From NCBI GenBank assembly GCA_013140455.1, contig JABFSU010000057.1:1-64000 (forward strand): a stretch of 64,000 bases of DNA. The letters run 5' to 3'. Below, one piece after another: positions 48,441 to 62,061 of the stretch. The translations under genes and the position numbers were made by a program. The notes beneath the pieces were generated by a model. It was not told the DNA's origin and made no database searches. It was given only the letters and a program-made list of their open reading frames with translations. The DNA is from Nitrospira sp. (lineage in GTDB: Bacteria > Nitrospirota > Nitrospiria > Nitrospirales > Nitrospiraceae). Position 1 is the first letter of the stretch, and each line of letters starts with the position of its first letter.

Positions 48441-49697
48441 TCACCGATGGAACAGGTGACGGATCGAAGCCGGAGGAGAGAGCCATCGTGAGAGCGTGTG
48501 AATAGGGCTCACTCCGCGAGCGAGCCAGGGCAACAACCGGCGCCAGCGGAACCAAGCCGGCGGCGCTTGCACGATCGGATCGTGACTGCGACACAACGCG
48601 ATCCCGTATCGCCACCGCGCATTCCAATCATCTTGAAGAGTAAACAACAACGCCCCGACATCGCGATCGTCGAGCCCCTCCTGCTGTTGCAGAAGCAGGC
48701 TTTTCGGCATGCGTTGGGCCAAACTCAAGACATCGGAATCAGCCGCAATCATGTTCAGGATCTGTGGGGGAATGGGCGCCTCCATGACTCGATGGGACAG
48801 CGCCAGACCAAGCAGCAGGACCCGATAACATTTCCATTCCAGGGCGGTCGTGAGCACCCGCTTCCAATTCAGCCGCCCGGCACGGATAAGTCCGGCCGCC
48901 TCCGTCACCAAGCTGAGTTGTCCCCACGCCTGATGTGCTCCATGCATGCAGAGCACAAGCAACACTTCCTCCGGAGCCATCCCCTTGATCTTCCGGCCGT
49001 TCAGCGAGACCGGCCTGGCGTGCCCCCACACCTCCGGCCGGTCAATAGGGAAGATCATACGCGCATGTCTCACCGCCCACAGCAGCTCGACCTGACAAGA
49101 CGTGCCGGCGTGAAGATAGACGAGCGGCCGCTCGCATACACCGGCATCAACAGTGCGATCACTCGCCCCTCCGCGCACAGAATAGCCCTGTGAGATCAAC
49201 GCCCGCTCTGCATCCGCAAGTTGCTCCCGGCGCACAAGCGCGACCAGATCGGCGTGAGCACAGAGCGTGGGATCACCGTAGATCATGGCTGCCAAGCCGA
49301 CACCCCTGAAAGGAAGCACCGAGACTCCGGCCTCGCCAAAGGCCCGAGATAGGCGAAGCAGTTCAGCCGCTCCAGCTCGATTCGCGGCGGCCGCCTCTTC
49401 CGTCCGCCGGCGAAGCGCATCCAGATCCGCCGGGGGAACAAGGTCCGCACACAGTTCGGTCAGCGTCCTGGCGAGCAGGGACTCGACCCCATGGCTCTTG
49501 GCCAACTCCAGCAGCAACGGCCAATTCAAACCGGCTTGCGCGACATCAAGAATCCGGCGACGGAGAGACTCAGGCACCGCCGCTCTGGCGCACCAGATGA
49601 GGAATTGGGCCTCCCGGAAACGCACCGGGTTCACCCATCCGGCAGACGCCGTCGTAGATGCCGCTCCATCGACCGGATGTCGAAACGAGAATCCCAC
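48441..49697 (-). CDS. RiPP-cluster nucleotidyltransferase 2 (NTP_transf_5 type), probably inactive
   Basis: 418-aa member of the uncharacterised nucleotidyltransferase family found in lasso-peptide and exopolysaccharide loci, paralogous to the gene at 59052. The N-terminal helical part (FLIWCARAAVPESLRRRI) and the body align well, but the catalytic motif differs: FRGVGLAAMIYGDPTLC-AHADLVALV, where paralogue 1 has LRDFSDLDLLI. The second Asp of DxD and the preceding Arg/Asp are lost, so catalysis is doubtful. GTG start, two nt after the hydroxylase stop. Confidence 0.85.
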   Translation of the reverse strand: MGFSFRHPVDGAASTTASAGWVNPVRFREAQFLIWCARAAVPESLRRRILDVAQAGLNWPLLLELAKSHGVESLLARTLTELCADLVPPADLDALRRRTEEAAAANRAGAAELLRLSRAFGEAGVSVLPFRGVGLAAMIYGDPTLCAHADLVALVRREQLADAERALISQGYSVRGGASDRTVDAGVCERPLVYLHAGTSCQVELLWAVRHARMIFPIDRPEVWGHARPVSLNGRKIKGMAPEEVLLVLCMHGAHQAWGQLSLVTEAAGLIRAGRLNWKRVLTTALEWKCYRVLLLGLALSHRVMEAPIPPQILNMIAADSDVLSLAQRMPKSLLLQQQEGLDDRDVGALLFTLQDDWNARWRYGIALCRSHDPIVQAPPAWFRWRRLLPWLARGVSPIHTLSRWLSPPASIRHLFHR

Positions 49698-49699
49698 CG

Positions 49700-50743
49700 C
49701 TAAACCCTCCTCTCGAGCAACCGAGTCACGCCGCGAACCGCACTGACAAAGGGAGTCCCATAGAGCTTGGAAACCGTGGCAAATTCCTGGGACTCTCCCC
49801 CAGGAATCCCGACGCGCAATACCTCCGGCTTCCCCGGAGCGTACAACGTGCCAAAGAGCGCATCCCAGAGAGTAAATTTCACCCCAAAGTTCTTATTCCA
49901 ATGCCGAGGGTCGATGCTGTGATGAAGCTGGTGGTGTGCCGGGCTCATCACAAGCCGGTTCAACCAAGGCCCATAGGACATCCAGATATGGGAATGCCGA
50001 AGATGAGTCCCCAGCAACCCATAGACAAACCCGAAAATGCTCACGCCGAAGATCATCATGAACTGGCGGTCACGTCCGAGCACATTTTGAAACAACAGAG
50101 CCGACAGTCCGACCACCGGCGCTTGCAGCACCACTGTGATCAGATTTTCAACCGGATGCACCCGAAACGCAGCCGCCGGAGTCAACACCTCGGCGGAATG
50201 ATGCACTTGGTGGAATGACCAGAGGACGGGATTCCTGTGGAGCCACACATGCGCCCAGTAATTGATCAGATCGGACAAGAGCAGAAACCCCATCGTCGCG
50301 ACGGCGATCGTCGCCGGGGTCATTGACCCGGGAGGCTCCCAGCCCATTCGCTGGATGACCACCGCCGAGAGAATCTTAGCGGTCAGGAGGCCAACCCCTG
50401 AGAAGACCGGGATCCACATAAGAAAATTCAGCACAAGATCGACAGCCATGAAACGTAGATCCAACAGCGTGGACGGATGGCGATAAATGTGAGCCGGAAA
50501 CGCATACTCGCGAAAGGACGTGGCGGTCGTTCCGCCCTGCCGCAGTGCGACAAGATAGAGCAACCAGGCCAACACCAGACTGGAGAGCAGATACGGCCAG
50601 GCCAGCCCGTTCGTGAAGTTGACGAACACCAACGGAATCCGCTCAAGGGCCTCTTGAAAACTGGCCCAGGAGTGGAATGACGCAAACACCGTCTCCCACA
50701 CCCGCTCAAAGAACCAGCTGATACGCTCGATCATAGCCGACAC
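49700..50743 (-). CDS. RiPP-cluster membrane di-iron hydroxylase 1 (sterol desaturase/fatty acid hydroxylase superfamily)
   Basis: 347-aa integral membrane protein of the fatty acid hydroxylase superfamily. The di-iron His clusters are WAHVWLHR, WSFHQVHHS, and HHQLHHSIDPRH with the later NFGV motif. About five membrane helices. It shares its layout, including SAEVLTP and YGP-L, with the gene at 51453, so the two arose by duplication. Its place between precursor 1 and NTase 2 suggests it may oxidise the peptide, a membrane partner or a lipid; this is inference. ATG 50734 is an alternative start. Confidence 0.88.
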   Translation of the reverse strand: MSAMIERISWFFERVWETVFASFHSWASFQEALERIPLVFVNFTNGLAWPYLLSSLVLAWLLYLVALRQGGTTATSFREYAFPAHIYRHPSTLLDLRFMAVDLVLNFLMWIPVFSGVGLLTAKILSAVVIQRMGWEPPGSMTPATIAVATMGFLLLSDLINYWAHVWLHRNPVLWSFHQVHHSAEVLTPAAAFRVHPVENLITVVLQAPVVGLSALLFQNVLGRDRQFMMIFGVSIFGFVYGLLGTHLRHSHIWMSYGPWLNRLVMSPAHHQLHHSIDPRHWNKNFGVKFTLWDALFGTLYAPGKPEVLRVGIPGGESQEFATVSKLYGTPFVSAVRGVTRLLERRV

Positions 50744-50841
50744 CTAGCCCCACACAGATCATCCGGCCCAGACGCTTCTCTTCACGCGAGGCGCTCCGAG
50801 GGTCAGAGGCCTCGGCATCACTGCCCGTTCAGGAACACCGC

Positions 50842-50874
50842 AAGACTGGTTGGCGATTCTCGCCAACCAGTCTT
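50842..50874 (-). promoter_or_regulatory. Perfect stem-loop downstream of precursor 1
   Basis: AAGACTGGTTGGCGA-3 nt-TCGCCAACCAGTCTT, a 15-bp perfect stem starting 41 nt after the precursor stop, before hydroxylase 1. There is no T-run, so it may be an attenuator or a 3'-end stabiliser of the short precursor transcript rather than a full terminator. Confidence 0.8.
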
Positions 50875-50914
50875 GCCAGCGCACGCTTCGCACCTCTGTC
50901 GCCAGAGGCATCAA

Positions 50915-51043
50915 TTAGCTGATGCAGGCGTTATCCACTGCCTTCTGACACTGCTCCTTGTACTTCTGACCCGTCACATCGCGCAGCAATTCATGCGCGA
51001 CCAACACAGGCTCCGAGTACGCTTCCTTCTTCTGTTGCTCCAT
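50915..51043 (-). CDS. RiPP precursor peptide 1
   Basis: 42-codon gene with a strong AAAGGGGGTGAA ribosome-binding site before ATG 51043. The leader begins MEQQKKEAYSE and carries PVLVAHELLRDVTG, shared with precursors 2 and 3. Spacing matches the lasso-leader rule Y9-x2-P12-x-L14-x3-(E18 for Gly)-x5-T24. The segment after it is QKYKEQCQKAVDNACIS with two Cys and a C-terminal Ser, a possible HPr-kinase-like target. No Asp/Glu lies 7-9 residues after a Gly1, so a classical lasso ring is not evident. Confidence 0.88.
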   Translation of the reverse strand: MEQQKKEAYSEPVLVAHELLRDVTGQKYKEQCQKAVDNACIS

Positions 51044-51223
51044 GGTTGTTCACCCCCTTTCTTTCATCAGAGTCCCCCGTGCTCCAGACGGCTCACGGGA
51101 GCGACGGCCCCTATCTATCTTCACCCTGCGTCTCCCTCTCGCACCCCTGCGCTGCCGAAACAAAAGAAGGACGCGCAACCAACTCTTGCATCACCGGCAA
51201 TCCCTGGACCATCTCGTCCAAGT

Positions 51224-51261
51224 CGTGAGCTGGCCGGTCCTCTCGAACCGGCCAGCTCACG
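51224..51261 (-). promoter_or_regulatory. Stem-loop downstream of precursor 2
   Basis: CGTGAGCTGGCCGGT-8 nt-ACCGGCCAGCTCACG, a 15-bp stem 31 nt after the precursor 2 stop. Same position relative to the gene as the hairpins after the other precursors. Confidence 0.8.
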
Positions 51262-51291
51262 CTTACAGGTAGCGACTCACACAATCCCAAC

Positions 51292-51429
51292 CTAGAAGTT
51301 GGCACCGTCGCTCTCCTTACCGCCCTTGTCACTAGTCTTCACTCCGGACGCGCCACCGGTCACATCGCGCAACAATTCATGCGCGATCAATACAGGCTCC
51401 GAATACGATTCCTTCTTCTGTTGTTCCAT
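51292..51429 (-). CDS. RiPP precursor peptide 2
   Basis: 45-codon gene, ATG 51429, with an AAAGGGGGTGAA site. The leader (MEQQKKESYSE, PVLIAHELLRDVTG) is nearly identical to precursors 1 and 3. If cleavage follows the lasso rule (Thr at -2), the core is GASGVKTSDKGGKESDGANF: Gly1 and Asp9, an arrangement allowing a 9-residue macrolactam ring. The GxSG start recurs in precursors 4 and 5. Lies between hydroxylase 2 and precursor 1. Confidence 0.9.
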   Translation of the reverse strand: MEQQKKESYSEPVLIAHELLRDVTGGASGVKTSDKGGKESDGANF

Positions 51430-51452
51430 GCTTGTTCACCCCCTTTCTCTTG

Positions 51453-52529
51453 TTAAAGTCCCTCAGAACGCACGGCATCCTGAGAGCGAGTGAGCGGGCC
51501 GGACGCAACGCTTCGCCGGATCAATCTTCCTACGCGTTGGAACGGCCCGGCATACAGCTTCCCAACCGTCGAAAACTCGTCCTTCTTCATACCGACAAGC
51601 CCGAATTGGAGGCATTCGTGGCGATCCGGCACGCAAAGCGTACCGAAGACCCAGTCCCATAGTGCGAACTTCACGCCGAAGTTCTTATCGTGATGCCGAG
51701 GATCAATGCTGTGATGCGTTTGGTGCACGATCGGACTCAGCAGCACACGATCAAGCAGGGGACCGTAGGAAATAGGAAGATGCGAATGCTGCAGGTGGAA
51801 TCCAGATAGTCCATACATGAACGCCACAAGACTCACGCCGAACACGGTCGTCACAGCTAACTCGTGCGCCGGAATGGCCTGATAAAAGATGAACGCCGAT
51901 CCGATCACCGGCACACGAAAGATCGTCGTGACAAAGAATTCCACCGGGTGGGCGCGATAGGCCGAGAGCGGAGTCAATACTTCAGCCGAATGATGGACCT
52001 GGTGAAATGCCCACAGCAGCGGAACTTTGTGGAGCAGCATGTGGCTCCAGTAGTTCATAAAGTCGTGCAGCAGATAGAAGCCCAGCGCTGCGGCAAAGAG
52101 GGCCGGCACGGACAAGGTGACCGGAGGTGCCCACCCCGCATAGCCGGCCAAGACGGCACTCCCGATCTTCCCGGCAATGGCGCCGAGGCCGGCCAGCATG
52201 GGGAAACAGAAGAACACATTGAAGAGGAGACTCACGACATAGAATCGGTAGTCCAACCTCGCGGAGGGATGGGCGAACACGTGAGCAGGAAAGAGAAAGG
52301 CCGAGAATGCTTTTGCCGACCATGCGGCTCGCGGCTTGGACAGGAGGTACGCTCCCCCCGCTATCGTCACACTGGCCAGCGCATAGGGCCAGGCCAGGCC
52401 GCTAGTGAACCGGGTAAACATCCCGCTGATCTCACCGACAGCAGCCGTCACACCGTCCCAGGAAGAGACGGCGGACAAGGCGTATTCCGCACATCTCTCG
52501 AGAAACCATTGCACCGTCTCAAACGACAT
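51453..52529 (-). CDS. RiPP-cluster membrane di-iron hydroxylase 2
   Basis: 358-aa membrane protein, paralogue of the gene at 49700. His clusters: YWSHMLLHK, AFHQVHHS, VHQTHHSIDPRHH. About five membrane helices (FLFPAHVFAH, LFNVFFCFPMLAGLGAIAG, among others). The start MSFETVQWF at 52529 matches the N-terminus of the paralogue and has an AAAGG site; an open frame continues upstream to 52601. Two precursor genes flank it (3 upstream, 2 downstream), and peptide hydroxylation is a possible role. Confidence 0.88.
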   Translation of the reverse strand: MSFETVQWFLERCAEYALSAVSSWDGVTAAVGEISGMFTRFTSGLAWPYALASVTIAGGAYLLSKPRAAWSAKAFSAFLFPAHVFAHPSARLDYRFYVVSLLFNVFFCFPMLAGLGAIAGKIGSAVLAGYAGWAPPVTLSVPALFAAALGFYLLHDFMNYWSHMLLHKVPLLWAFHQVHHSAEVLTPLSAYRAHPVEFFVTTIFRVPVIGSAFIFYQAIPAHELAVTTVFGVSLVAFMYGLSGFHLQHSHLPISYGPLLDRVLLSPIVHQTHHSIDPRHHDKNFGVKFALWDWVFGTLCVPDRHECLQFGLVGMKKDEFSTVGKLYAGPFQRVGRLIRRSVASGPLTRSQDAVRSEGL

Positions 52530-52553
52530 CTGCCTTTCACCCTTTCCCATCCC

Positions 52554-52587
52554 TGGGTTGACCGCCCCCTGCGGGACGGCCAACCCA
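52554..52587 (-). promoter_or_regulatory. Stem-loop downstream of precursor 3
   Basis: TGGGTTG...CCAACCCA arms (52554-52560 and 52581-52587) with an inner CCG/CGG and CCC/GGG extension. It starts 26 nt after the precursor 3 stop. Confidence 0.72.
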
Positions 52588-52612
52588 AGAACAGCCCGCA
52601 CACTCGCGTGAA

Positions 52613-52741
52613 CTAGACGGGACCCTCACTACCGGCTTTCTCCGGGCTCTTCTCCCTGTACTTCACCCCCGTCACGTCGCGCAGCAATTCATGCGCGATC
52701 AACACGGGTTCGGAGTACGACTCCTTCTGCTGTTGTTCCAT
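52613..52741 (-). CDS. RiPP precursor peptide 3
   Basis: 42-codon gene, ATG 52741, with an AAAGGGGGTGAA site. The leader (MEQQQKESYSE, PVLIAHELLRDVTG) is of subtype 1-3. The segment after Thr24-Gly25 is VKYREKSPEKAGSEGPV, resembling precursor 1 at its start (xKYxE). No Gly1 plus Asp/Glu7-9, so no classical lasso ring unless another ring chemistry applies. Follows HPrK-2. Confidence 0.87.
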   Translation of the reverse strand: MEQQQKESYSEPVLIAHELLRDVTGVKYREKSPEKAGSEGPV

Positions 52742-52864
52742 GCTTCTTCACCCCCTTTCTCTTGTTGAAGTCCCTCGTAGCGCAAACGCATTACGAGAGC
52801 AGATCCGCAACGTTCTTGCCCAACCTGATTTCCGGACGCACCGATAGGCCTCACCGCCGGCCGA

Positions 52865-53899
52865 CTACGCCGCGGATCGCGCGTCAAGCAGCGGACGGAT
52901 CAACTTGGGCAGATCAAGGATGTCCCGGCCGAAGTGGAGCCGATAGCAATCGACCTGCTGAACGAGCTTCGCCAAGGCCTCAAACTCACGGCGGGCCACG
53001 GCCTGGTCATAGACCAACAACCCCTGCGGCATCAGCGCCTCGAGGGCGCGGCTCTTTGGCAGCGGCTCCAGACAGCTATGCGGCATATCAACGACGTGCG
53101 GGAACATGATGATGGCCGGCCTGCAGGTGCGGCCGATGGACTCGGCATAGAGGTCTTCTGACTGAAAGTGTTTCTTCTGGACCCCTTGTTTCAACAGCCC
53201 GGGGGGCGCATCGCGCAGCTCAGGGAAAAACTCGATCGTCCGGTCTGTCACATCGATCTTCATGGGGAAGGCAAGCAGTTCCATCTGCGTGCCTCGGTCG
53301 CGGAGCAAGGGATAGTCGTCGGAGAGATAATGGAATCCCGACCGCAGGAGCGACAAGAACGACGTCGTCTTCCCCTGGCCGCTATAGCCCGGAATCAAGA
53401 CGCCCTGGCCCGCATATTCCAACGCCGTCGCATGGACGGTAAACAGGCCGTTGCGCTTCAGCAGCTCAGCCAGCGCGAAGTGGAGAAAGCTCGTCCGCAC
53501 ATCCGGATGCATCGCGTCGGGTCGAATGAAGTAGCCTTCCACCAGATTTCTCGCGCCATCGATCACCAGCACACCCTGTTCATGAAAGTCGGCAATGAGC
53601 CGGTCCCCGTCCTGCACGATCTCGCATTGCCACAGCGGACGCATCGTGTCCCCCAGAGAGGGCCGCTCCCCTGCAAACAACACCTTCGAACCCGCCGACT
53701 TCGTGACCGGGACCTCCGCTCGACTTGCCACCTCGCCAAACTGAATCGTGAGCACCGACGCTCCCTGCGCAGCGGCCGCATGGAAATAGCGGAGGAAGGT
53801 GAGCGCTGGATCGATAAATGCAGGAATAGACGTCCGAAACCGGAGATCAAGGCCATGACAATTGAACAGATACTCGCCGGCGGTGACCGCTGTATTCAT
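52865..53899 (-). CDS. RiPP-cluster HPr-kinase-like kinase 2
   Basis: 344-aa protein with the HPr kinase/phosphorylase-like C-terminal domain: Walker A GYSGQGKTTSFLSLL, then FHYLSDDYPLL with the acidic pair, and a conserved end (YDQAVARREFEALAKLVQQV). Homologous kinases in lasso clusters phosphorylate a C-terminal Ser of the precursor (known for paeninodin-type clusters); here this is inference. ATG 53899 with a GGAGG site is preferred over the open frame up to 53971. 79 nt after PqqD-2. Confidence 0.9.
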   Translation of the reverse strand: MNTAVTAGEYLFNCHGLDLRFRTSIPAFIDPALTFLRYFHAAAAQGASVLTIQFGEVASRAEVPVTKSAGSKVLFAGERPSLGDTMRPLWQCEIVQDGDRLIADFHEQGVLVIDGARNLVEGYFIRPDAMHPDVRTSFLHFALAELLKRNGLFTVHATALEYAGQGVLIPGYSGQGKTTSFLSLLRSGFHYLSDDYPLLRDRGTQMELLAFPMKIDVTDRTIEFFPELRDAPPGLLKQGVQKKHFQSEDLYAESIGRTCRPAIIMFPHVVDMPHSCLEPLPKSRALEALMPQGLLVYDQAVARREFEALAKLVQQVDCYRLHFGRDILDLPKLIRPLLDARSAA

Positions 53900-53978
53900 G
53901 ACATCCTCCACTAGAGAAATTGGTTCCTTCTTCAACCCCGGCCAGCCCGTGCGAACTGCGCGGTGGTGCAATTCCTAT

Positions 53979-54437
53979 TCACGCCTGTTCAATGGTTAAC
54001 AGCCCCTCGTGGCTCAGATGGGTCACGAGGGCGAACAGATCATCGGCAATTCGCTCCGGCGGAGCGTCGAACCGCCCGCACAGGGCGGCGTGGATGGCCT
54101 GAAGGGACTGTGTTCCCGTACAGATTTCCCAGATCGCGCTGCCGACCCGATTCAACGTGTAGTAGCGGCCTGTGCTCAGATTCAGCAATACGGTCTCACC
54201 ATCGAGCGTCGTACCCTGAACATCCGGATTGGGGCGCGGCACCGCCGACATGAGCGCTTGACGGGTATCCTGCCTGCCCCGTTCAATCTGCTGCTGTTCC
54301 CCCTCCGACAGGACGGCACGAGCCGCTTCGGCCAGTTGCGCGGTCGTGGCCTGGCCCGACGGCGACACCTGCCCAGGCTCGGACTCCACAGTCATATCCG
54401 GCCTCAAGTCGGCGGTAATAAACGGCTGTCTCCCCAT
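53979..54437 (-). CDS. RiPP-cluster PqqD-like leader-binding protein 2
   Basis: 152-aa protein ending in a PqqD/RRE-type winged-helix domain (~70-150): GETVLLNLSTGRYYTLNRVG, SAIWEICTG, IHAALCGRFDAPPERIADDL. PqqD-like proteins (lasso B1) bind the precursor leader and present it to the modifying enzymes. The first ~70 residues are a variable, Gln/Glu-rich extension absent from the shorter paralogue at 61720. ATG 54437 with an AAGGGAG site. Confidence 0.9.
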   Translation of the reverse strand: MGRQPFITADLRPDMTVESEPGQVSPSGQATTAQLAEAARAVLSEGEQQQIERGRQDTRQALMSAVPRPNPDVQGTTLDGETVLLNLSTGRYYTLNRVGSAIWEICTGTQSLQAIHAALCGRFDAPPERIADDLFALVTHLSHEGLLTIEQA

Positions 54438-54478
54438 GATGACGCTCCCTTCGTTATGACTCGACAGTTCCACCCGCA

Positions 54479-55378
54479 CTACGCGCGTCCGGCACAGAGC
54501 AAATCGGCTAAGGCATCGCCGATCCGTTGCCCCGTATGGTTTTCGAAAAAGGTAAACCCCGGGCTGGTATTGACTTCGAAACAGTAATAGGTGCCGTCCG
54601 GTGTCCGGCGAAGATCGATCCCGCTCAGGCTCAATCCCAGTCCTTTGGCGAGATTGAGGCAGCGGGTCTGGACACTCGGCTCCAATTCGACCGCTCTCAT
54701 GGTGCGTTGCTTATCCTCGCGCTCGGCATACCGGTAATCCGCTCCATCCGACAGCACCTCGGTTGCAAACAACCGGTCTCCGACCGTGTGAACCCGCACA
54801 TCAGCGCCGGGAATGGTTTCTTGCAGTTGCACCGGGCAGGTCCGGATCTGTTCCAGGCGGGGAAAATCAGCCGGCGTGAGAGGCCGCACGATCGACCGCT
54901 CCGCGCTGATGGATTTGTAGATGACGCGCCCCTGACAGGCGTCATAGAAACGGCGCGCTTCCTCCGGCACCATCGTCACCAGCGTCTTCGGAACCATAAA
55001 GCCATACTGCTCGATCAGCCGCTGCTGATAAGGCTTCGACATGTTCGTATGCGATGCCTGGCGCCGGTTGACGACCAGGACCGGCAGACTTTCAGCGAAC
55101 TCCCAGAGCGTCGTCGCCACCATACGCTCACGAGGCGCCGAGCCTGACCGGACGCCGACTCCTCGGAGGTACACCGCATTGATACTTGCGGCATCGATGA
55201 CCCGCTGGCCGAGACGGATGCGCCCCACAGCCTGACCGCTGTCGGTCGACCAGGATACGTCCCAGTCCTGTCCGTCCGACTCCGGATGGACGAGCATCAG
55301 ATCAGCGTTCCGGACTGCGAGTCGGGCACACACGTTCGCGAGCACTGAATCGGCCATCGGCCCCATGAGAAGAATCAT
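54479..55378 (-). CDS. RiPP-cluster ATP-grasp ligase 1
   Basis: 299-aa ATP-grasp protein of the RimK/MvdD-like shape. An N-terminal alpha/beta region (AASINAVYLRGVGVRS) is followed by the ATP-grasp fold: VIYKSISAERSIVRP, VQLQETIPGADVRVHTVGD, and the metal/ATP site GIDLRRTPDGTYYCFEVNTS with intact E-x-N. Such enzymes form amide or ester bonds between peptide side chains, or ligate amino acids. No lasso cyclase is present nearby, so this is the best candidate for a bond-forming step. It overlaps ATP-grasp 2 by 77 nt; ATG 55357 is an alternative start. Confidence 0.88.
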   Translation of the reverse strand: MILLMGPMADSVLANVCARLAVRNADLMLVHPESDGQDWDVSWSTDSGQAVGRIRLGQRVIDAASINAVYLRGVGVRSGSAPRERMVATTLWEFAESLPVLVVNRRQASHTNMSKPYQQRLIEQYGFMVPKTLVTMVPEEARRFYDACQGRVIYKSISAERSIVRPLTPADFPRLEQIRTCPVQLQETIPGADVRVHTVGDRLFATEVLSDGADYRYAEREDKQRTMRAVELEPSVQTRCLNLAKGLGLSLSGIDLRRTPDGTYYCFEVNTSPGFTFFENHTGQRIGDALADLLCAGRA

Positions 55379-56294
55379 GATGCGAAAGACTCCTCAGTTT
55401 GGAAAGATGTTGGAGCAGATGCTCCACAATCTGCTGCTGGGCATCTTGCGGACAGCGCCAGAAATTCGGCGCGCTGCTGATATCGAGGCAGGAGACTCCT
55501 CCCTCGGGGGTAATCACGATCTGGCACTCGGCGAACGTCAGCCCCAAGGCGCGCACGAGGCCAAGGCACTGCGCGGGGTGAACCGACAACACCTCCATCG
55601 GCTGGGTGACCCTGTCACCAGGGCGAAGCACCGTGGCCACGACTTCCTCTCCCGCCACATAGACCGTCGCCTGTTGCCCCGGTGGGATCGCTTGGAGTGA
55701 CACCGCCTGCTGCTCCATGACTCGGCGGATCTGCTCGGCCCCATCGTGCGAATGCAGGAACTGACCCGGCTCGACCGATCCGAGAGGCTTGAGGTAGGCC
55801 GCCTCGCCCCACGCCATGAATTGCTGCAGGGCATCGGCTTGGCTTGACGTACAGCGGGAAGCCGGAAGGAGAAATCCATGATCCTGAGCGAGCTTCGCCA
55901 GCAACGGGCTCCCCGAAAGGAGCGTGGGCCTGCCACCTGGAATTGGTCGATTGACCACGGAACAGGGCATGGCATTCAAGAAGGCCAGCCAGGCGGCGGT
56001 CGACTCCTTGGTCACATACTGGGCATCAGCGTCCGAGAGCCCCTCAAGATCCAAACGGAGGGGGAACGGAAGACGAGCAAAAATACCCGTCAGGTCATCA
56101 AGGAGAATCGTCCGGCCGTCGATTTCCAGAGATCCGGGAACGAACGCCTCTCCCTCCATGACCGGCCAATTGAGCAGGATCGTATCCAGAAGTCGCAACG
56201 GTTCAACCCAAAAGACCGCACCCCCCGTCCGTTGGGCTTCCCGATGGACAAGCGTGGCCCAGGGATCGGTCGAATCGGCAAGAATAAGAATCAC
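55302..56294 (-). CDS. RiPP-cluster ATP-grasp-like protein 2, probably degenerate
   Basis: 330-aa paralogue of ATP-grasp 1. The fold pattern is kept (AYLKPLGSVEPGQF, ATVYVAGEEVVATVLRPGD), but the C-terminal metal site reads VSCLDISSAPNFW where the active copy has YCFEVNTSPGF: the usual Glu is Asp and the Asn is Ser. Catalysis may be lost, leaving a role in binding or in a heterodimer with ATP-grasp 1. GTG start with a GGAGAGGAG site, first gene after the operator-like palindromes at 56427-56455. Confidence 0.83.
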   Translation of the reverse strand: MILILADSTDPWATLVHREAQRTGGAVFWVEPLRLLDTILLNWPVMEGEAFVPGSLEIDGRTILLDDLTGIFARLPFPLRLDLEGLSDADAQYVTKESTAAWLAFLNAMPCSVVNRPIPGGRPTLLSGSPLLAKLAQDHGFLLPASRCTSSQADALQQFMAWGEAAYLKPLGSVEPGQFLHSHDGAEQIRRVMEQQAVSLQAIPPGQQATVYVAGEEVVATVLRPGDRVTQPMEVLSVHPAQCLGLVRALGLTFAECQIVITPEGGVSCLDISSAPNFWRCPQDAQQQIVEHLLQHLSKLRSLSHHDSSHGADGRFSARERVCPTRSPER

Positions 56295-56426
56295 TGTTGG
56301 TGACTCCTCTCCGGCGCCTGAGATTGTAAAATTGCTGCTTCGGAGGCAGTGAGGCGCGCCATGTCTTTGAGGAGAGTAGCCCCGGGCGGACGTTCTGCCT
56401 AGATCACTAGAAGCGGGGCCCCCCCC

Positions 56427-56455
56427 CTACGTAAGTCTGTACGTAGTCCTACGTG
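56427..56455. promoter_or_regulatory. Clustered TACGTA palindromes, candidate operator
   Basis: Three TACGT(A/G) boxes within 29 nt. CTACGTA-6 nt-TACGTAG (56427-56446) and ACGTAG-TC-CTACGT (56441-56454) are both perfect inverted repeats that overlap. They lie about 135-165 nt upstream of ATP-grasp 2 in the only sizeable gap of the locus (56295-56556). A LuxR/NarL-type regulator site is possible; the regulator is not in the window. Confidence 0.5.
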
Positions 56456-56556
56456 TTCTGAAGACCTGACGGGAAGGATGAGCCGTACGCGCGGCCACAC
56501 AGACTCACCGGTTCGACACCGACCAGGGGAAATGAGCGATCGGAAGGGAGGGGAGA

Positions 56557-58383
56557 CTACTGGTAGTGTTGCGCTTGCGTGAGGAATAACGAGGCATAGA
56601 GGCCTTGGCGGCCCATCAAGTCATCATGGGTGCCCTGCTCCACGATCTGACCACGATCCACCACGAAAATCCGGTCGGCCATTTTCACCGTGGACAACCG
56701 ATGACTGATTAAAATAGCCGTCCGCCCTTGTGCGAGTTCGTGGAACCGTTCGAACAACTCCGCTTCCGCCTTGGCGTCCATGGCACTGGTCGGTTCGTCG
56801 AGAATCAGGACTTGGGAATTGCGGAGGATAGCCCTCGCCAGCGCCACCTTCTGCCATTCCCCGATACTCAGCTCATGCCCCCCGTCGAATAACTTGCCCA
56901 ACAAAGACTCGTAGCCCTTCGGCAAACGCTCGATGGCCTCATGCACTCCGGCTTGCTTGGCAGCCTGCACGATCACCGGAAGTGCAACCTCCGACGCATT
57001 GCCCCCCATCGTGATGTTGTCTTTGGCGGAAAACTGAAACTTCACAAAATCCTGAAAAATCCCGCTGACCGCCCCGCGGACATCAGCGATGGCGTAGTCA
57101 CGAATATCCGTCCCGTCGATCGTAATACGACCGCTCGTGGGATCGTAGAGACGACATAACAGTTTCACCAACGTGGTTTTCCCTGCGCCGTTGGCTCCGA
57201 CAAACGCCACATGCTCGCCGGGCTTGATCGTAAAGGTGAAGTCGCGGACGGCCACCCGTTCTTCATGGGGATATTGAAACGACACCTGCTCGAACACAAT
57301 CCCCTGCCCGAGCGAAGCAGGAAACGGCCGAGGACGGACCGCTTCGGGCAACTTCGAGCGAATCGCCAGAAATTCGTTCAGCGTCGTCAGAAAGAGATTG
57401 CTCTCATACAAGTTCGACACACTCCAGCCCAGCCCTTCGAGAAACCCTGAGGCCCGCTGAATGGCCTGAAAGAACATGACCAGGTCGCCGACCGTCAAGA
57501 GCCCATGAAACGTTCGCACCGCCACGAAACTGTAGACTCCGAAGACTCCTGCGACGCCTACGATCTGCGCCGCCAACCCGGCAAACGCCCATCGGCGTTC
57601 TAAGGCGATCCGCTCCCGCCGCAGCACCGTTCGCGCCTCGCGGAACCATTCCCGCAGCCGGGGGCCGAGGTCGAAGAGACGGACCTCTTTGGCCGCGGTG
57701 GCCTGGGTCAACAACATGTTGACGTACCAGGCCTTTCGTTCCAGCGGTGTCCGCTCGCGCTCCCATGCAAACAGCCGGTTGGACTGCTGCAGGCGGACAA
57801 AGAAATATGGAATCGCCGTCAGGGCGAGGACCGGAATGACGGCCCAGTGCAACCACCAGAGAATGCCCGCCATCGCCAGAAGCGAAATGCCGTCCTGGCC
57901 GAATTGAAGCAGCGCATTGAGGATCGACGTCGGGCGATACGGCGCTTCCTGCTGTGCCCGATGCAGCGTATCCTGGTAACGGGCATTCTCGTAATACTCA
58001 AGATCGACCTCGACGGATTTGGCCTGCAACAACGCATGCATATGATCCGTGACAACCTGCGCATGAATCCTGGAGATTAAGGATGCCGCGACGGTAAGCA
58101 TCGCGCTCACCAGTGCGGCCCCTGCCAGGCCCGCGAGAATCGTCGTAATGGGGGTCAACGAGGCATCCTGCGAGGGAGCCTTGAGCCCCTCCGTCACCGC
58201 ATCGATCAACAGTTTGGTCAGATACAGCACGGCCAGGGGAAGCAGCCCCTGGATGACCCGCACGACGATACTGCCGACCGCAAGACTCGGACTGCTCTGC
58301 CAGACAAACGAAAGGGCATACCGAAGCGTCTGGAGGAAGGGACGTATGCGGAGGATAAGACTATTCATGGAGATAGGTTGCAC
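56557..58383 (-). CDS. RiPP-cluster ABC exporter
   Basis: 608-aa half-transporter with a fused permease (about six helices, residues ~20-320) and an ATPase: Walker A FVGANGAGKTTLVKLL, signature ELSIGEWQKVALARAI, Walker B VLILDEPTSAMDA, switch His in ILISHRLST. There is no N-terminal C39 peptidase, so the leader must be cut by another enzyme (the B2-like protease). It likely exports the mature peptide and confers self-protection, as lasso D transporters do. ATG 58368 is an alternative start. Confidence 0.93.
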   Translation of the reverse strand: MQPISMNSLILRIRPFLQTLRYALSFVWQSSPSLAVGSIVVRVIQGLLPLAVLYLTKLLIDAVTEGLKAPSQDASLTPITTILAGLAGAALVSAMLTVAASLISRIHAQVVTDHMHALLQAKSVEVDLEYYENARYQDTLHRAQQEAPYRPTSILNALLQFGQDGISLLAMAGILWWLHWAVIPVLALTAIPYFFVRLQQSNRLFAWERERTPLERKAWYVNMLLTQATAAKEVRLFDLGPRLREWFREARTVLRRERIALERRWAFAGLAAQIVGVAGVFGVYSFVAVRTFHGLLTVGDLVMFFQAIQRASGFLEGLGWSVSNLYESNLFLTTLNEFLAIRSKLPEAVRPRPFPASLGQGIVFEQVSFQYPHEERVAVRDFTFTIKPGEHVAFVGANGAGKTTLVKLLCRLYDPTSGRITIDGTDIRDYAIADVRGAVSGIFQDFVKFQFSAKDNITMGGNASEVALPVIVQAAKQAGVHEAIERLPKGYESLLGKLFDGGHELSIGEWQKVALARAILRNSQVLILDEPTSAMDAKAEAELFERFHELAQGRTAILISHRLSTVKMADRIFVVDRGQIVEQGTHDDLMGRQGLYASLFLTQAQHYQ

Positions 58384-58443
58384 ACTTTCTCACGTCAGAT
58401 GGCCGCAGTCGTCCCATTCCTGGAACGCACAGGGGGCGCCGGC

Positions 58444-58860
58444 TCACGGTTGCCCTGGCGGAAACGAATAGGTGACGGTGAAACACTGCCAATGCCGGCC
58501 GGGCTCGTAAAATGGGGCTCGATCGAGCGTCAACCAGGCATGGCCATCAAGGCCGGTTCCGTCTTTTCGCACTCCGCAGTGAAACAACACCGGATAGCCG
58601 GATCGTGTGGCGAACCAATACAACGCCAACGACCGGGGAAAGCAATTTCCCTTCGCGTTGTATGGAAAGAGTTGGAGCCACCGGTCCGTATAGTAGACGA
58701 GGTCCTCGAACCGCGCCGAATCAGGCTCCCCGGACAGTGCGCCGGGATCCAGCCGTTTCAACACCGCCGGAAGACTCTCACCGCGTAACCGGAGGCGAAT
58801 CCAGGACACGATCGCAGCCACCTGGAGCAACATCCAATACTTTCTTACCACTCGCTTCAT
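58444..58860 (-). CDS. RiPP-cluster lasso B2-like leader peptidase
   Basis: 138-aa transglutaminase-like cysteine protease of the lasso peptide B2 type. The triad is visible: Cys in KGNCFPRSLALYWFATR, His in LDGHAWLTLD and the Asp that follows. B2 removes the leader after B1/PqqD has bound it. The start ATG 58860 matches the usual length; the frame open further upstream has no family similarity. Only one B2 is present for two PqqD-like proteins. Confidence 0.9.
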   Translation of the reverse strand: MKRVVRKYWMLLQVAAIVSWIRLRLRGESLPAVLKRLDPGALSGEPDSARFEDLVYYTDRWLQLFPYNAKGNCFPRSLALYWFATRSGYPVLFHCGVRKDGTGLDGHAWLTLDRAPFYEPGRHWQCFTVTYSFPPGQP

Positions 58861-59051
58861 CGTGGGCTCACTGTCACAAGTCGTCCGGCAAATTCCAGCA
58901 ATCACTGCCTCCTCGCTCACTCGACCATGCTCCACACGTTCAAGAGGCCAGCGACACGATCGCCGTTGCACCGGATGTTCCAGGCATGGCCGCCAGGGTT
59001 CGTCAAGCTTGGAGAATGGATGGCTTAGAATGAATTAGCTCGACGGGACCA

Positions 59052-60272
59052 TCAGCCTCCGTGTTCAACCCATCGATTGATCGCGCCTCGAATTGAAGAT
59101 GGCACCAGAGTCCTCACCGCTCGCTGGCACGGCCGAACGAGATGAGCCAATCGCATGAGCCCCCTCCCACGGGAAAACCAGCTTGGCGGATTGTCCACAA
59201 CTGACGAGCCGTCCCGGCACAGCACCAGGCCGAATCGCATCCGTTCCCACCAGGTATCCTTCAACGTCAAGTAGAAGGCCACGGCCTGCTCCTCACTGAC
59301 CCCGTTCCGGGGACTCGCCAAGAGGCTTGCCGGCATACGCTCAGACAACATCCGGACATCGGCATCGGTCGAATAGCGCGCATAGACGGATTGCGGGATC
59401 GGCGCATCCAGCACCCGATGCGCCAGCGCCAATCCAATGTGAATTAATCGTCGGCAACCCCAGGCCCTTGCGTTTGCAAAGATCCGCTCCCAGTCAAGAT
59501 CCGGATGTGAGCGGAGAAGTTCCGCGACATCGCAGACCCATTTGAGCTGTTCCCAGGCATGCTTCGAGCCATGCACGCAGAGAAGGATCAGAAGCTCCTC
59601 GGGCGCCAACCCTTGTACAGTCGAATTCCCCAGCGACATAGGCGACCGATGTGCCCAGAACTCCGGACGATCCAACTGAAAGGCAAAGTGCTGATGCGCC
59701 ATCACCCACTGGAGATCGACACGAAACAGGCTGCGCTTCTTGATATACACATGATAGGGCCCCTCTTCGTGCTCCGCTTCCGCAGGGTCGCTCGAAGGAT
59801 CTTTCCGTTCATAGCCCTGGGCGAACAGGACCGCTTGCGCGGCCCCGGTCGCAGATTCGGAAATCAGGAGGTCGAGATCGCTGAAATCGCGGAGCGTCAG
59901 ATCGCCATAGGCGGACAGCGCCAGAGTCGCGCCTTTAATCGGCACAACCGGGACACTGCGCGCGGCAAACGCGTCACACAGGCTTCCAAGCTCCTGCGCA
60001 AGCGATCGATTCAGCAAGGCACAGGCTTGCGTTTTCTGACGCAGCCTCGTCAGCGTATCGCCCGGCACGAGAGAAGGACAAATTGCCGACAGATTCCGGT
60101 ACAGAAGCGGAAGCACCCCGTGATACGCGGCGAGATCCAGCATTAGTCCCCAATCGAGAGGCTCCTGGACCCGCGCGCAGATGTGCGCGCGCAGTTCCTC
60201 GGCGACGGACGTGCGCGCGCACCAGACCAGCAGTTCTGCTTCAGGCGACCACGGAAACTGTCGCGGTTGCAT
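59052..60272 (-). CDS. RiPP-cluster nucleotidyltransferase 1 (NTP_transf_5 type)
   Basis: 406-aa uncharacterised nucleotidyltransferase with an intact active-site motif: IKGATLALSAYGDLTLRDF followed by SDLDLLI (D-x-D). The helical rest aligns with the paralogue at 48441. Homologues accompany HPr-like kinases in lasso clusters, where they may add nucleotide groups to the phosphorylated peptide; this is known only for a few systems and inferred here. ATG 60272 shares one nucleotide with the HPrK-1 stop (TAATG), so the two are coupled. Confidence 0.9.
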   Translation of the reverse strand: MQPRQFPWSPEAELLVWCARTSVAEELRAHICARVQEPLDWGLMLDLAAYHGVLPLLYRNLSAICPSLVPGDTLTRLRQKTQACALLNRSLAQELGSLCDAFAARSVPVVPIKGATLALSAYGDLTLRDFSDLDLLISESATGAAQAVLFAQGYERKDPSSDPAEAEHEEGPYHVYIKKRSLFRVDLQWVMAHQHFAFQLDRPEFWAHRSPMSLGNSTVQGLAPEELLILLCVHGSKHAWEQLKWVCDVAELLRSHPDLDWERIFANARAWGCRRLIHIGLALAHRVLDAPIPQSVYARYSTDADVRMLSERMPASLLASPRNGVSEEQAVAFYLTLKDTWWERMRFGLVLCRDGSSVVDNPPSWFSRGRGLMRLAHLVRPCQRAVRTLVPSSIRGAINRWVEHGG

Positions 60273-61288
60273 TATCGCCCCTTCTCCAGCAATGGCGTGA
60301 TCAGCTTCGGCAAGTCCAGAATATCGCGACCGAAATGCAGGCGGTAACAATCGACCTGCTGCACGAGTTTCGCCAGCACCTTAAATTCACGCCTGGCGAC
60401 CTCTTGATCGTAGACCAGGAGGGCTTGCGGCAAGAGCGCTTCCAATGCCCGGCTCTTGGGAAGCATCTCGAGGTGGCTCTGTGGCGCATCCACGACATGA
60501 GGAAAAAGCACCAGGGCCGGCCGGCAGCGCTCCCCGACCCCCGTGGGATAGAGGTCTTCGGCATAAAAGAATCGTTTGGGCACTCCAGGATGAAGCACCT
60601 GCTCTGAGGCCGCTCTGAGCTCCGGGAAAAACTGGACCGTGGCGTCCGTGACATTGATCTTAATCGGGAACGGCAGCACTTCCACCTGCGCCCCCGAGTC
60701 CTGCAGAAGCGGATGGTCATCCGACAGATAGCGATAGCCCGACCGGAGCAAGGAGATAAACGAGGTGGTCTTCCCCCGCCCGCTGTTGCCGGGAATCAAG
60801 ATGGCGCGCCCGTTGTGTTCCAAAGCCGTCGCATGAATCGTATAGAGCCCACCCCGCCGCAACAATTCGATCAGCGCCAGGTGAAACAGATATTCAATGA
60901 GGTTGGAGGGCAGCCGCTCCGGATTGATCAGATAACCGTCGGCCCGACTCTGTGCGCCGTCGACCACCAACACCCCGATCCCATGGAACTCTGCGATTAG
61001 AAGCCCCTGATCCAGAATCACGTCGTAAGGCAATCCGTTCGCTCGCCGATCCCCGACGGCCTCCCCCGTACCTGACGCCAGCTTCCGAGCCGACGCAGAA
61101 ATCGAGAGCGGGACTTGCGTCCGGTCCGCCACCTGATGCAAACGAATGGCCAGAACCGCATCGGATTCGAGCGAATCCCTACGGAAATTCCGCAATAACT
61201 CGTTCACCGGGTGCGCCAGAACCGGCACATCCGTCTCATACCTGACCGCTGTGCCATAGAGGGAATACCAGTATTCAGCCATGCCCAT
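60272..61288 (-). CDS. RiPP-cluster HPr-kinase-like kinase 1
   Basis: 338-aa paralogue of the kinase at 52865 (shared HATALE, LLRSGYRYLSDDHPLL, LVQQVDCYRLHFGRDILDLP). Walker A is PGNSGRGKTTSF. The start is uncertain: ATG 61288 has a GAGGA site about 10 nt upstream, and 61297 and 61282 are possible; a longer frame to 61465 would run into precursor 4 and is unlikely. It follows precursor 4 and precedes NTase 1. Confidence 0.88.
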   Translation of the reverse strand: MGMAEYWYSLYGTAVRYETDVPVLAHPVNELLRNFRRDSLESDAVLAIRLHQVADRTQVPLSISASARKLASGTGEAVGDRRANGLPYDVILDQGLLIAEFHGIGVLVVDGAQSRADGYLINPERLPSNLIEYLFHLALIELLRRGGLYTIHATALEHNGRAILIPGNSGRGKTTSFISLLRSGYRYLSDDHPLLQDSGAQVEVLPFPIKINVTDATVQFFPELRAASEQVLHPGVPKRFFYAEDLYPTGVGERCRPALVLFPHVVDAPQSHLEMLPKSRALEALLPQALLVYDQEVARREFKVLAKLVQQVDCYRLHFGRDILDLPKLITPLLEKGR

Positions 61289-61353
61289 TTCTACCATGTC
61301 CTCGTGATTCAACCGATCTATTTCTTCTCCCTGCCACCCCGCATCGGGGAGAC

Positions 61354-61384
61354 GGGCCGGCCCGCTCATGCAGCGGGCTGGCCC
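61354..61384 (-). promoter_or_regulatory. Stem-loop downstream of precursor 4
   Basis: GGGCCGGCCCGCT-5 nt-AGCGGGCTGGCCC, a 13-bp stem (one G-U) 8 nt after the precursor 4 stop and before HPrK-1. Confidence 0.78.
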
Positions 61385-61391
61385 CTTCAAG

Positions 61392-61523
61392 CTAGTCGTT
61401 ATTTCGCCACCAGCGCTTCTTATCATCGTCGCAATTGTAGCCCGACTGACCCGCCGTAATATCACGCAACAATTCGTGCTTCACCATCACCGGCTGAACG
61501 TACGACTCTTTCTTCTGTTCCAT
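61392..61523 (-). CDS. RiPP precursor peptide 4
   Basis: 43-codon gene, ATG 61523, with a GAGGAGG site. Leader subtype 4-5: MEQKKESYVQ then PVMVKHELLRDITA, with Y8-x2-P11-x-M13-x3-E17-x5-T23. Taking Thr as -2, the core is GQSGYNCDDDKKRWWRNND: Gly1 with Asp8, 9 or 10, which allows an 8- or 9-residue macrolactam ring, and two bulky Trp further on that could act as a plug. The most lasso-like of the five. Between precursor 5 and HPrK-1. Confidence 0.92.
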   Translation of the reverse strand: MEQKKESYVQPVMVKHELLRDITAGQSGYNCDDDKKRWWRNND

Positions 61524-61555
61524 CGGTCTGTTGCCTCCTCAATTTAGAATACAGA

Positions 61556-61581
61556 CTGGCCAATCCCTGTGAACCGGCCAG
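61556..61581 (-). promoter_or_regulatory. Stem-loop downstream of precursor 5
   Basis: CTGGCC...GGCCAG (61556-61561 and 61576-61581) with weak G-U extension into the loop, starting 18 nt after the precursor 5 stop. It resembles the hairpin after precursor 2, which shares gaaccggccag. Confidence 0.62.
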
Positions 61582-61598
61582 CCCATCGTGAATCTCTG

Positions 61599-61712
61599 CT
61601 ACTCCTCACACTGACGGCAAATCACCTGGCCTGACGTGCCCGCCGTAATGTCGCGCAGCAACTCGTGCTTCACAACTACCGGCTGAGCATACTGTTCTTT
61701 CTTCTGTTCCAT
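61599..61712 (-). CDS. RiPP precursor peptide 5
   Basis: 37-codon gene, ATG 61712, with a near-perfect AAAGGAGGTGAA site that lies within the end of PqqD-1. Leader subtype 4-5 (MEQKKEQYAQ, PVVVKHELLRDITA). The core would be GTSGQVICRQCEE, with a C-x2-C pair and Glu only at 12-13, so a standard 7-9 ring cannot form; a disulfide or another linkage is possible. Seven nt after PqqD-1. Confidence 0.9.
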   Translation of the reverse strand: MEQKKEQYAQPVVVKHELLRDITAGTSGQVICRQCEE

Positions 61713-61719
61713 CTGTTCT

Positions 61720-62061
61720 TCACCTCCTTTCTTGTTGAAGTAACCCTTCCTGAATCAGTTCATTGGCCAGATCGACGAGATCGTCGAGGGCACGTGACGG
61801 TACGACGTCAAACCGGTCACAGATGGCCGCATGAATATCTGTCATCGTGCTGTGCCCGGTACAATGCTCCCAGATCACGCTCCCTAGTCGGTTCAACGTG
61901 TAATACCGACCCGTGCTGAGGTCCAAGAGAACTGTTTCTCCATCCATCGTCGTACCTTGGACGTCCGGATTCGACCGTAAAACGATGCGATCAAGCTGCG
62001 CTCGGTCGATCGCAGATCCTGTCGTACCAGGCAATGTCGTCGTAGATGCTCTCTCTGCCAT
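61720..62061 (-). CDS. RiPP-cluster PqqD-like leader-binding protein 1
   Basis: 113-aa PqqD/lasso B1-like protein. It shares NPDVQGTTMDGETVLLDLST, GRYYTLNRLGSVIWEHCTG and IHAAICDRFDVVPSRALDDL with the paralogue at 53979 but lacks its long N-terminal extension. It should bind the leaders of precursors 4 and 5, the next genes. AAGGAGG site nine bases before ATG 62061. First gene of the cluster. Confidence 0.92.
   Translation of the reverse strand: MAERASTTTLPGTTGSAIDRAQLDRIVLRSNPDVQGTTMDGETVLLDLSTGRYYTLNRLGSVIWEHCTGHSTMTDIHAAICDRFDVVPSRALDDLVDLANELIQEGLLQQERR

Follow-up and report, generated by a model that had tools for sequence, protein, structure and literature searches.

What kind of peptide would be made by a gene cluster that appears to handle its precursors in the manner of lasso peptides and also encodes ATP-grasp enzymes? 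The question is raised by positions 48441–62061 of a 64,000-nucleotide stretch of Nitrospira sp. DNA (contig JABFSU010000057.1), here called the window. A preliminary description had proposed a hybrid RiPP locus, and our verdict is likewise a new hybrid of known RiPP kinds, its chemistry being inferred. As had been counted, the locus holds 17 genes, all on the minus strand, 12 larger ones and five tiny precursors; it is flanked by purF on one side and a TlpA-like gene on the other. The genes are as follows.

48441–49697, minus: NTR1, an NTP_transf_5 protein with a degenerate DxD motif, a pseudo-nucleotidyltransferase (PF14907, 3.4e-42)
49700–50743, minus: FAH1, a membrane di-iron FA_hydroxylase-type oxygenase, His motifs complete (PF04116, 3.3e-25; weak OlsE model match)
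50915–51043, minus: preA, type I precursor, core GQKYKEQCQKAVDNACIS
51292–51429, minus: preB, type I precursor, core GGASGVKTSDKGGKESDGANF
51453–52601, minus: FAH2, a second FA_hydroxylase-type oxygenase (PF04116, 6.3e-23)
52613–52741, minus: preC, type I precursor, core GVKYREKSPEKAGSEGPV
52865–53971, minus: HPK1, an HprK-like peptide kinase, Walker A and DD motif intact (HprK_rel_A, 9.6e-16)
53979–54479, minus: PqqD1, a RiPP recognition element (RRE) with an N-terminal extension of ~85 residues (PF05402, 2.5e-17)
54479–55378, minus: GRASP1, a graspetide-synthetase-type ATP-grasp ligase, catalytic motifs intact (TIGR04187, 3.4e-37; PsnB, 4.5e-38; AF2 model and Foldseek)
55302–56294, minus: GRASP2, a degenerate ATP-grasp partner
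56557–58383, minus: MsbA-like ABC exporter (Pfam/NCBIfam)
58444–58971, minus: B2 leader peptidase (Transglut_core3), Cys and His motifs present (PF13471, 1.4e-15; NF033537 above cut-off)
59052–60350, minus: NTR2, an NTP_transf_5 protein, DLD motif intact (PF14907, 9e-64)
60272–61465, minus: HPK2, an HprK-like peptide kinase whose ORF overlaps preD (HprK_rel_A, 4.2e-17)
61392–61523, minus: preD, type II precursor, core AGQSGYNCDDDKKRWWRNND
61599–61712, minus: preE, type II precursor, core AGTSGQVICRQCEE
61720–62061, minus: PqqD2, a discrete RRE (PF05402, 6.5e-17)

Gene identities and catalytic motifs were observed directly, and the Pfam and NCBIfam assignments (two each of NTP_transf_5, FA_hydroxylase, HprK-like kinase, PqqD and ATP-grasp; one B2/Transglut_core3 and one MsbA-like ABC protein) bear out the families named earlier. 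Two of the pairs need qualification: both ATP-grasp proteins match their family, but the second (55302–56294) has lost the catalytic EVN motif, and both nucleotidyltransferases are NTP_transf_5 proteins, but that at 48441–49697 has lost its DxD motif. The DLD motif of NTR1 is replaced in the window and in same-genus orthologues, and is intact in cluster L064. The true start of HPK2 probably lies within the ORF listed.

The precursors are not chance small ORFs. This is ruled out by a strong Shine-Dalgarno sequence ahead of each of the five, by leaders that are near-identical both within one genome and between genomes, and by a pN/pS of 0.11 in leaders versus 0.33 in cores (12 pairs); these small genes are conserved, with purifying selection acting on them. 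A lack of conserved small frames in related genomes would have refuted the hybrid reading, which thus survives. The leader register was likewise observed: Tyr-17, Pro-14, Leu/Val-12 and Thr-2, with Y-17, P-14 and T-2 shared by each of the 15 type I precursors examined, which fulfills the lasso register of Tyr-17, Pro-14, Leu-12 and Thr-2 (PMC10368454).

A lasso peptide would further be expected to have B1 (PqqD) and B2 (Transglut_core3) proteins, both of which are present, and an Asn-synthetase-like cyclase in the cluster or genome, which is not. Asp/Glu at core positions 7–9, which a threaded lasso ring would call for, occurs in some cores and is lacking in many. The best solved relative of PqqD1 is TbiB1, a lasso RRE; B2 had no match among PDB sequences. 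No lasso cyclase scored above the NF033535 cut-off in nine genomes, one of them in a single contig, and the four full-length Asn synthetases of this genome all begin with MCG, the canonical glutaminase form. On the evidence of these nine genomes, an ordinary lasso peptide is therefore rejected. The earlier remark that no cyclase was seen thus holds for a lasso cyclase in those nine genomes, but not in general, since GRASP1 belongs to the graspetide macrocyclases. A third PqqD protein in the genome (C123) belongs to a separate SPASM-like system, is unlinked to the cluster, and was excluded as a part of it.

Clusters of the GRASP1 type occur in at least 15 Nitrospirota genomes (six genera) and one Nostoc; the entire cluster is syntenic in six other same-genus genomes, and shorter versions are found in five further genera and Nostoc. 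Some 16 further Nitrospira have GRASP-less clusters, likewise equipped with B2, that match the module of PqqD2, type II precursors, HPK2, NTR2, B2 and the ABC protein. The second module (GRASP2/1, PqqD1, HPK1 and the hydroxylases) accompanies K-Y-x-E-K-x-x-D/E-K cores. Clusters with only the GRASP1 module (L064/L196, L197, L198, L199, L200) have KYxEK-type cores exclusively, and GRASP-less clusters have exclusively x-x-S3-G cores, Gly-rich and nearly free of Lys and Asp/Glu; this co-segregation of core type with GRASP1 is an observation. Because both GRASP-less and GRASP-only clusters were found, we dropped a single homogeneous pathway for a two-module reading: the locus is a composite of a graspetide-like module and a phosphopeptide module resembling that of the linear polyphosphorylated peptides (LPP; PMC13381572, Nat Commun, May 2026). 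That such clusters turn up again in related genera, and in a single cyanobacterium, points to a naturally merged pathway drawing on two known kinds of peptide.

Type I cores follow K-Y-x-E-K-x-x-D/E-K or relatives of it. K-x-x-[DE] is present in 25 of 29 type I, 4 of 20 type II and 1 of 14 GRASP-less cores, and in 13 divergent type I cores it was counted 26 times versus 8.6 ± 2.4 in shuffles; a graspetide core, in which donor Ser/Thr/Lys and acceptor Asp/Glu form a repeated pattern, is matched by this enrichment. Some type I cores, e.g., GGASGVSGGQCQSTSALNCVL, lack a clear K-x-x-D/E, and one KYxEK core, that of L038 (AKQYPEKNPKEDE), has no Ser or Thr anywhere. Ser occupies position +3, counted from Thr(-2) (in LPP the Thr is -1), in 20/20 type II and 14/14 GRASP-less cores.

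That GRASP1 is a graspetide-synthetase-type ATP-grasp enzyme rests on its sequence and fold neighbors, the reaction being inferred. Its closest solved sequences are graspetide macrocyclases (PsnB, 4.5e-38, then CdnC, AMdnB, MdnC, MdnB and PruB), and the top 31 Foldseek matches to its AF2 model are all of that kind. Its catalytic motifs are intact, as expected of a macrocyclase of this family, and invariant. With TIGR04187, however, its score of 128 bits falls short of the cut-off (350), and on sequence it thus forms an outlying family. GRASP2, degenerate in every orthologue, is its catalytically degenerate partner. Some ATP-grasp enzymes of RiPP pathways are ligases, and there is a RimK-like domain match in Pfam; the pair might thus be an amino-acid or peptide ligase of the RimK or pheganomycin type, adding residues without closing a ring. 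We consider this unlikely, as RimK lies far below the macrocyclases in the comparisons and the Lys/Asp/Glu motif co-segregates with GRASP1.

Within the macrocyclase reading, GRASP1/GRASP2 could instead replace the missing lasso cyclase, joining the amine at the new N terminus left by B2 cleavage to Asp/Glu 8 or 9 in a lasso-like or head-to-side-chain ring. The lasso-type leader, PqqD and B2 are all present, no lasso cyclase was found above the model cut-off in the nine genomes, several cores begin with Gly and are acidic (Asp/Glu) at position 8 or 9 (GASGVKTSD, GQSGYNCDD), and position 9 is D/E in many type I cores. However, the D/E position floats in cores of g28, g11 and Nostoc, the first residue is frequently Gln, Val, Ser or Lys, and GRASP1 relatives join side chains. 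The proposal also leaves the conserved KYxEK motif unexplained, the sequence of which is constant while its spacing from Thr(-2) varies, and we therefore hold it to be improbable.

Are the ATP-grasp pair and hydroxylases part of the pathway at all? Conceivably, every precursor yields an LPP-like linear phosphopeptide, and these genes are chance neighbors serving another small molecule or a lipid. FA_hydroxylases are usually lipid enzymes and OlsE is the best model match here; GRASP-less clusters manage without either gene set; and other loci have comparable ATP-grasp pairs but no PqqD. Against this stand co-conservation over Nitrospirota genera and Nostoc, the overlapping genes (the start of PqqD1 overlaps the GRASP1 stop), the tracking of KYxEK cores with GRASP1 presence, and a single protein observed in Nostoc sp. 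UCD121 in which GRASP1 and PqqD are fused, encoded beside HPK, B2, ABC and NTR and a precursor whose leader is of the lasso type. A chance neighborhood is accordingly very doubtful. Among plasmids, the GRASP1 homologues retrieved were all distant (at most ~31% identity among the matches listed). In the GRASP1 tree, the PqqD-linked enzymes fall together on one side of a branch, the support for which is weak (67); this is compatible with a single origin without demonstrating one.

The account we favor, and think probable although no product has been observed, is one of two modules sharing lasso-type leader machinery, with stapling by GRASP1 and phosphorylation at Ser3. All reactions are inferred, as are the kind of bond, the order in which the steps occur and what the peptides do biologically. 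The products would be ribosomal peptides with lasso-type leaders, and recognition, cutting and export would be common to both modules: judging by homology and register, PqqD proteins would bind the Tyr-17/Pro-14/Leu-12 leader and so offer the core to the enzymes, and B2 would cleave after Thr(-2)-Gly/Ala(-1); the MsbA-like protein, by homology, would export the product. With PqqD2, HPK2 and NTR2, type II precursors would be phosphorylated at core Ser3, without a lasso ring, possibly followed by nucleotidylation or glycosylation; this is modeled on LPP and paeninodin/Bsf peptides, HprK-like kinases having been published to phosphorylate Ser3 of LppA and BsfA. GRASP1, with GRASP2 and guided by PqqD1, would turn Asp/Glu side chains of type I precursors into acyl phosphates and link these, for the most part, to Lys side chains close by (i to i+3 or i+4) as isopeptide staples, before FAH1/FAH2, or another oxidase in relatives, hydroxylate the stapled peptide, plausibly on Lys. 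The oxidase type is swapped from one relative to another: FA_hydroxylase, PF13640 (as in L067), WelO5-like or GMC with Gluconate_2-dh3. By analogy with corallotide, Lys-Asp/Glu cross-links made by GRASP1 and then hydroxylation are most likely, but no chemistry has been shown. Counting against the favored account, some type I cores have no clear K-x-x-D/E, and the K/E pattern could reflect helix salt bridges instead; GRASP1 is outlying, and most of its close homologues elsewhere have no adjoining PqqD, kinase or precursor of this type; as far as is known, graspetide synthetases of known structure bind their leaders without a PqqD protein; and HPK1 remains intact where KYxEK cores carry no Ser at +3 or, in L038, neither Ser nor Thr.

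In Carter et al. 2026 (PMC13097080), CorB, which is assigned to TIGR04187, the model that GRASP1 matches, makes an isopeptide between Lys and Asp, and the 2OG oxygenase CorC (PF13640) hydroxylates it. The locus resembles corallotide and partner-protein-dependent graspetides in its macrocyclase-family ATP-grasp, partner protein, Lys- and Asp/Glu-rich core at short spacing and clustered oxidase. It differs in its lasso-type YxxPxL...T(-2) leader, discrete or fused PqqD RRE, B2, HprK-like kinase and nucleotidyltransferase, in a partner that is a degenerate ATP-grasp, and in Nitrospira oxidases that are di-iron hydroxylases, not 2OG enzymes. Graspetide groups 33 and 39 are listed there with a transglutaminase-fold protein. 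Features found in LPP (PMC13381572) and also in the type II module and its GRASP-less sister clusters are the RRE, HprK-like kinase, NTP transferase, MsbA-like exporter and lack of a cyclase, the type II module thereby fulfilling the LPP gene set, as well as the YxxP leader and conserved core Ser3. LPP clusters, however, come mostly from Bacillota, their leaders being cut by an SpI-like signal peptidase, whereas this host is a Nitrospirota with B2; no SpI-like signal peptidase is in the window cluster, where the larger genes are all assigned and B2 is the sole peptidase. The core genes of LPP clusters include neither ATP-grasp enzymes nor hydroxylases. Paeninodin/Bsf-type phosphorylated lasso peptides (PMC9266682, PMC10368454) have the same B1 (PqqD), B2, HprK-like kinase, nucleotidyltransferase, ABC protein and identical leader register; unlike them, the locus has no lasso cyclase and has the extra ATP-grasp pair and hydroxylases. 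Engineered lasso/graspetide chimeras (PMC13003496) also bring both families' enzymes to one peptide, but through two separate leaders on a designed peptide, whereas this locus relies on a single natural leader type for both sets of enzymes.

No fitting literature was found on Nitrospira with graspetides or on PqqD/lasso/graspetide hybrids, nor any published description or prior characterization of this gene set, which would have refuted the claim of novelty; the supplements of PMC13097080, with its group 33/39 lists, were not covered. We lean, if only slightly, toward a natural hybrid class whose single lasso-type leader and RRE steer a graspetide synthetase, pseudo-ATP-grasp partner, kinase and swappable oxidase onto the same KYxEKxxDK core; the resulting peptides would be hydroxylated, Lys-Asp/Glu-stapled and possibly phosphorylated, and their role in Nitrospira would be conserved. 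If true, two RiPP pathways have merged naturally through a shared leader code, with lasso/LPP recognition and cutting driving a graspetide synthetase, a combination hitherto made by hand, in another form (PMC13003496); Nitrospira would hold conserved modified peptides of unknown role. Discrete RREs would also be extended to graspetides, and a pseudo-ATP-grasp partner offered for testing. Since one-module clusters exist in nature, the chemistry of each module is separately testable; cluster L199 of g21, for example, has a single precursor, with core GQKYREKERDKFSDKSGVEN.

Inspection of the window's genes, together with Pfam and NCBIfam matches, bore out the preliminary description of seventeen minus-strand genes at 48441-62061. 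The window is Nitrospira DNA, Nitrospira MAGs being its closest public relatives. Five of the genes are precursors; the remainder are listed here.

Non-precursor genes at 48441-62061, minus strand (basis: Pfam/NCBIfam)
Two ATP-grasp genes: GRASP1 (54479..55378, intact) and GRASP2 (55302..56294, degenerate)
Two PqqD recognition elements (PqqD1, PqqD2)
Two HprK-related kinases (HPK1, HPK2)
Two NTP_transf_5 proteins (NTR1, NTR2)
Two FA_hydroxylases
One B2 leader peptidase (Transglut_core3)
One MsbA-like ABC exporter

NTR1 (48441-49697) no longer has a DxD motif, either in the window or in same-genus orthologues, and is predicted to be a conserved pseudo-nucleotidyltransferase paired with the intact NTR2. 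The five precursor ORFs (37-45 codons) have one leader in common; because each is preceded by a Shine-Dalgarno sequence (e.g., AAAGGAGGTGA) and pN/pS over 12 close pairs was 0.11 in leaders and 0.33 in cores, they were judged to be genuine genes, as had been proposed.

In leaders of type I (preA, preB, and preC, the module with GRASP1), Tyr -17, Pro -14, and Thr -2 were present in 15/15 checked precursors, with Leu or Val at -12; positions -17, -14, and -12 are those of lasso leaders, where Thr(-2) is the usual penultimate residue (PMC10368454). The best solved relative of PqqD1 is the lasso recognition protein TbiB1, and B2 retains its Cys and His motifs and scores above the lasso B2 model cut-off. 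Lasso-type leader handling is thus supported, and it is these features that a lasso-like ring closure would have in its favor. Such a closure, which would put GRASP1/GRASP2 in the place of the lasso cyclase and would fit the lack of one, is nevertheless improbable. No lasso cyclase exceeded the model cut-off in nine genomes searched (one a single contig), in keeping with the earlier remark that none was seen, and the window's genome has four Asn synthetases of full length, all starting MCG, the glutaminase form; lasso cyclases are not known to carry the Cys of that start. On both grounds, membership of the cluster among lasso peptides fails.

GRASP1 scored 128 bits against TIGR04187 (cut-off 350) and also matched MvdD/MvdC (NCBIfam). 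Its profile found PsnB, CdnC, AMdnB, MdnC, MdnB, and PruB as the best solved structures, with RimK far lower, and the 31 top fold matches of its AF2 model (pLDDT 88) were the same macrocyclases; the catalytic Lys, Asp, and E-V-N positions are invariant. That the ATP-grasp pair acts as an amino-acid or peptide ligase might be argued from a RimK-like domain match, but beside these matches we find it improbable. GRASP2 has the same fold, and the loss of E-V-N in all of its orthologues marks it as a putative conserved pseudo-enzyme partner.

The cores point the same way. Of the type I cores, 25/29 contain K-x-x-[DE], against 4/20 of type II (preD and preE, the module with PqqD2, HPK2, and NTR2) and 1/14 from clusters without an ATP-grasp (GRASP-less). 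Across 13 divergent type I cores, i,i+3 spacings numbered 26, versus 8.6 +/- 2.4 in composition-preserving shuffles, and i,i+2 was depleted; because the cores are related sequences, the shuffle figure is not a probability. The KYxEK motif lies at varying distances from Thr(-2), and its Nostoc counterpart is QKSGDKGKEK. We therefore think it probable that GRASP1 makes Lys-Asp/Glu cross-links. For corallotide, a graspetide, PMC13097080 describes a TIGR04187 enzyme linking Lys to Asp within KxxxD, after which a PF13640 oxygenase hydroxylates the Lys delta carbon. By analogy, the cluster would fit this logic of cross-link then oxidase, since an oxidase is almost always present although its kind differs between relatives; none was seen at locus L038.

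Oxidases of the cluster and its relatives
FA_hydroxylase: genera g1, g18, and g21
PF13640 2OG: locus L067
WelO5-like: Nostoc
GMC with Gluconate_2-dh3: loci L037 and L200

An HPK2 search found a short cluster (PqqD, precursor, HPK, NTR, B2, ABC) in ~16 other Nitrospira genomes (L169-L184), none with an ATP-grasp or hydroxylase of this kind, though in some of them the contig is short. The leaders there agree with those of type II in the window; the cores start A-x-R/K-S-G and continue Gly-rich. Conversely, clusters of g18, g21, and g28 have GRASP1/2, PqqD, HPK, B2, and NTR, and some of them an FA_hydroxylase as well (example cores GQKYREKQPEKSGVESVT, GSKYREKYRDKVNDN, and AGNGVKYREKLLDKFSDVPL), and no type II precursor was found in them. 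Given single-module clusters of both sorts, the window joins the two modules.

The GRASP-less clusters could suggest that the ATP-grasp genes are merely unrelated neighbors, a reading we consider very unlikely. A syntenic cluster exists in six other same-genus genomes, and at E <= 1e-66 GRASP1 was found in 15 genomes of 6 genera (phylum sample, 396 genomes), with PqqD and an HprK-like kinase adjoining or near it in every locus read; most same-family loci read lie between purF and a TlpA-like gene. Beyond the phylum, Nostoc sp. UCD121 carries PqqD, B2, GRASP2, GRASP1, precursor, HPK, two oxygenase-like genes, ABC, and NTR in a single row, and the C-terminal part of its GRASP1 is a PqqD domain (residues 382-448), a fusion that, judged from sequence, directly links a macrocyclase relative to a lasso-type recognition element.

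All type II cores (20/20) and all GRASP-less cores (14/14) have Ser at +3, counted from Thr(-2). Ser3 is the residue that HprK-like kinases phosphorylate in BsfA (PMC10368454) and in LppA (PMC13381572), and a hexose on phospho-Ser has been connected with PsmN, which is of nucleotidyltransferase type. Both the type II module and the GRASP-less clusters are therefore apparently B2-using relatives of the linear polyphosphorylated peptides (LPP), their phosphorylation being inferred. L169-L184, whose cores are Gly-rich and carry Ser3, apparently encode such LPP-like, B2-using peptides in a host outside Bacillota (Nitrospira). KYxEK cores lack Ser3 although HPK1 is in the cluster, and its target was not identified. 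The L038/L068 core (AKQYPEKNPKEDE) has no Ser or Thr, yet an intact HprK-like kinase adjoins, its target unexplained. An RRWW or RWW motif occurs near the C-terminus of some type II cores (61392-61523) and of one distant Nitrospirales precursor (L067:7118-7273).

Overall, gene anatomy and comparative genomics give good support to the proposed hybrid RiPP with lasso-type leader handling and ATP-grasp enzymes, while its chemistry is inferred. The suggested novelty would hold only for the hybrid of two kinds: both parent kinds were already known, and, as graspetide groups 33 and 39 carry transglutaminase-fold proteins (PMC13097080), overlap with them is not excluded.

Many phyla also have a degenerate and an intact GRASP1-type ATP-grasp gene as a pair, with neither PqqD nor a kinase of the cluster's kind (L069-L138, e.g., L081:9102-10795); in one Nitrospira such a pair adjoins a DUF6519 protein. 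Elsewhere in the window's genome, close to the beginning of a contig, a further PqqD gene precedes a SPASM-like radical SAM gene (G000:C123:39-1245, L003); this is possibly another RiPP locus.
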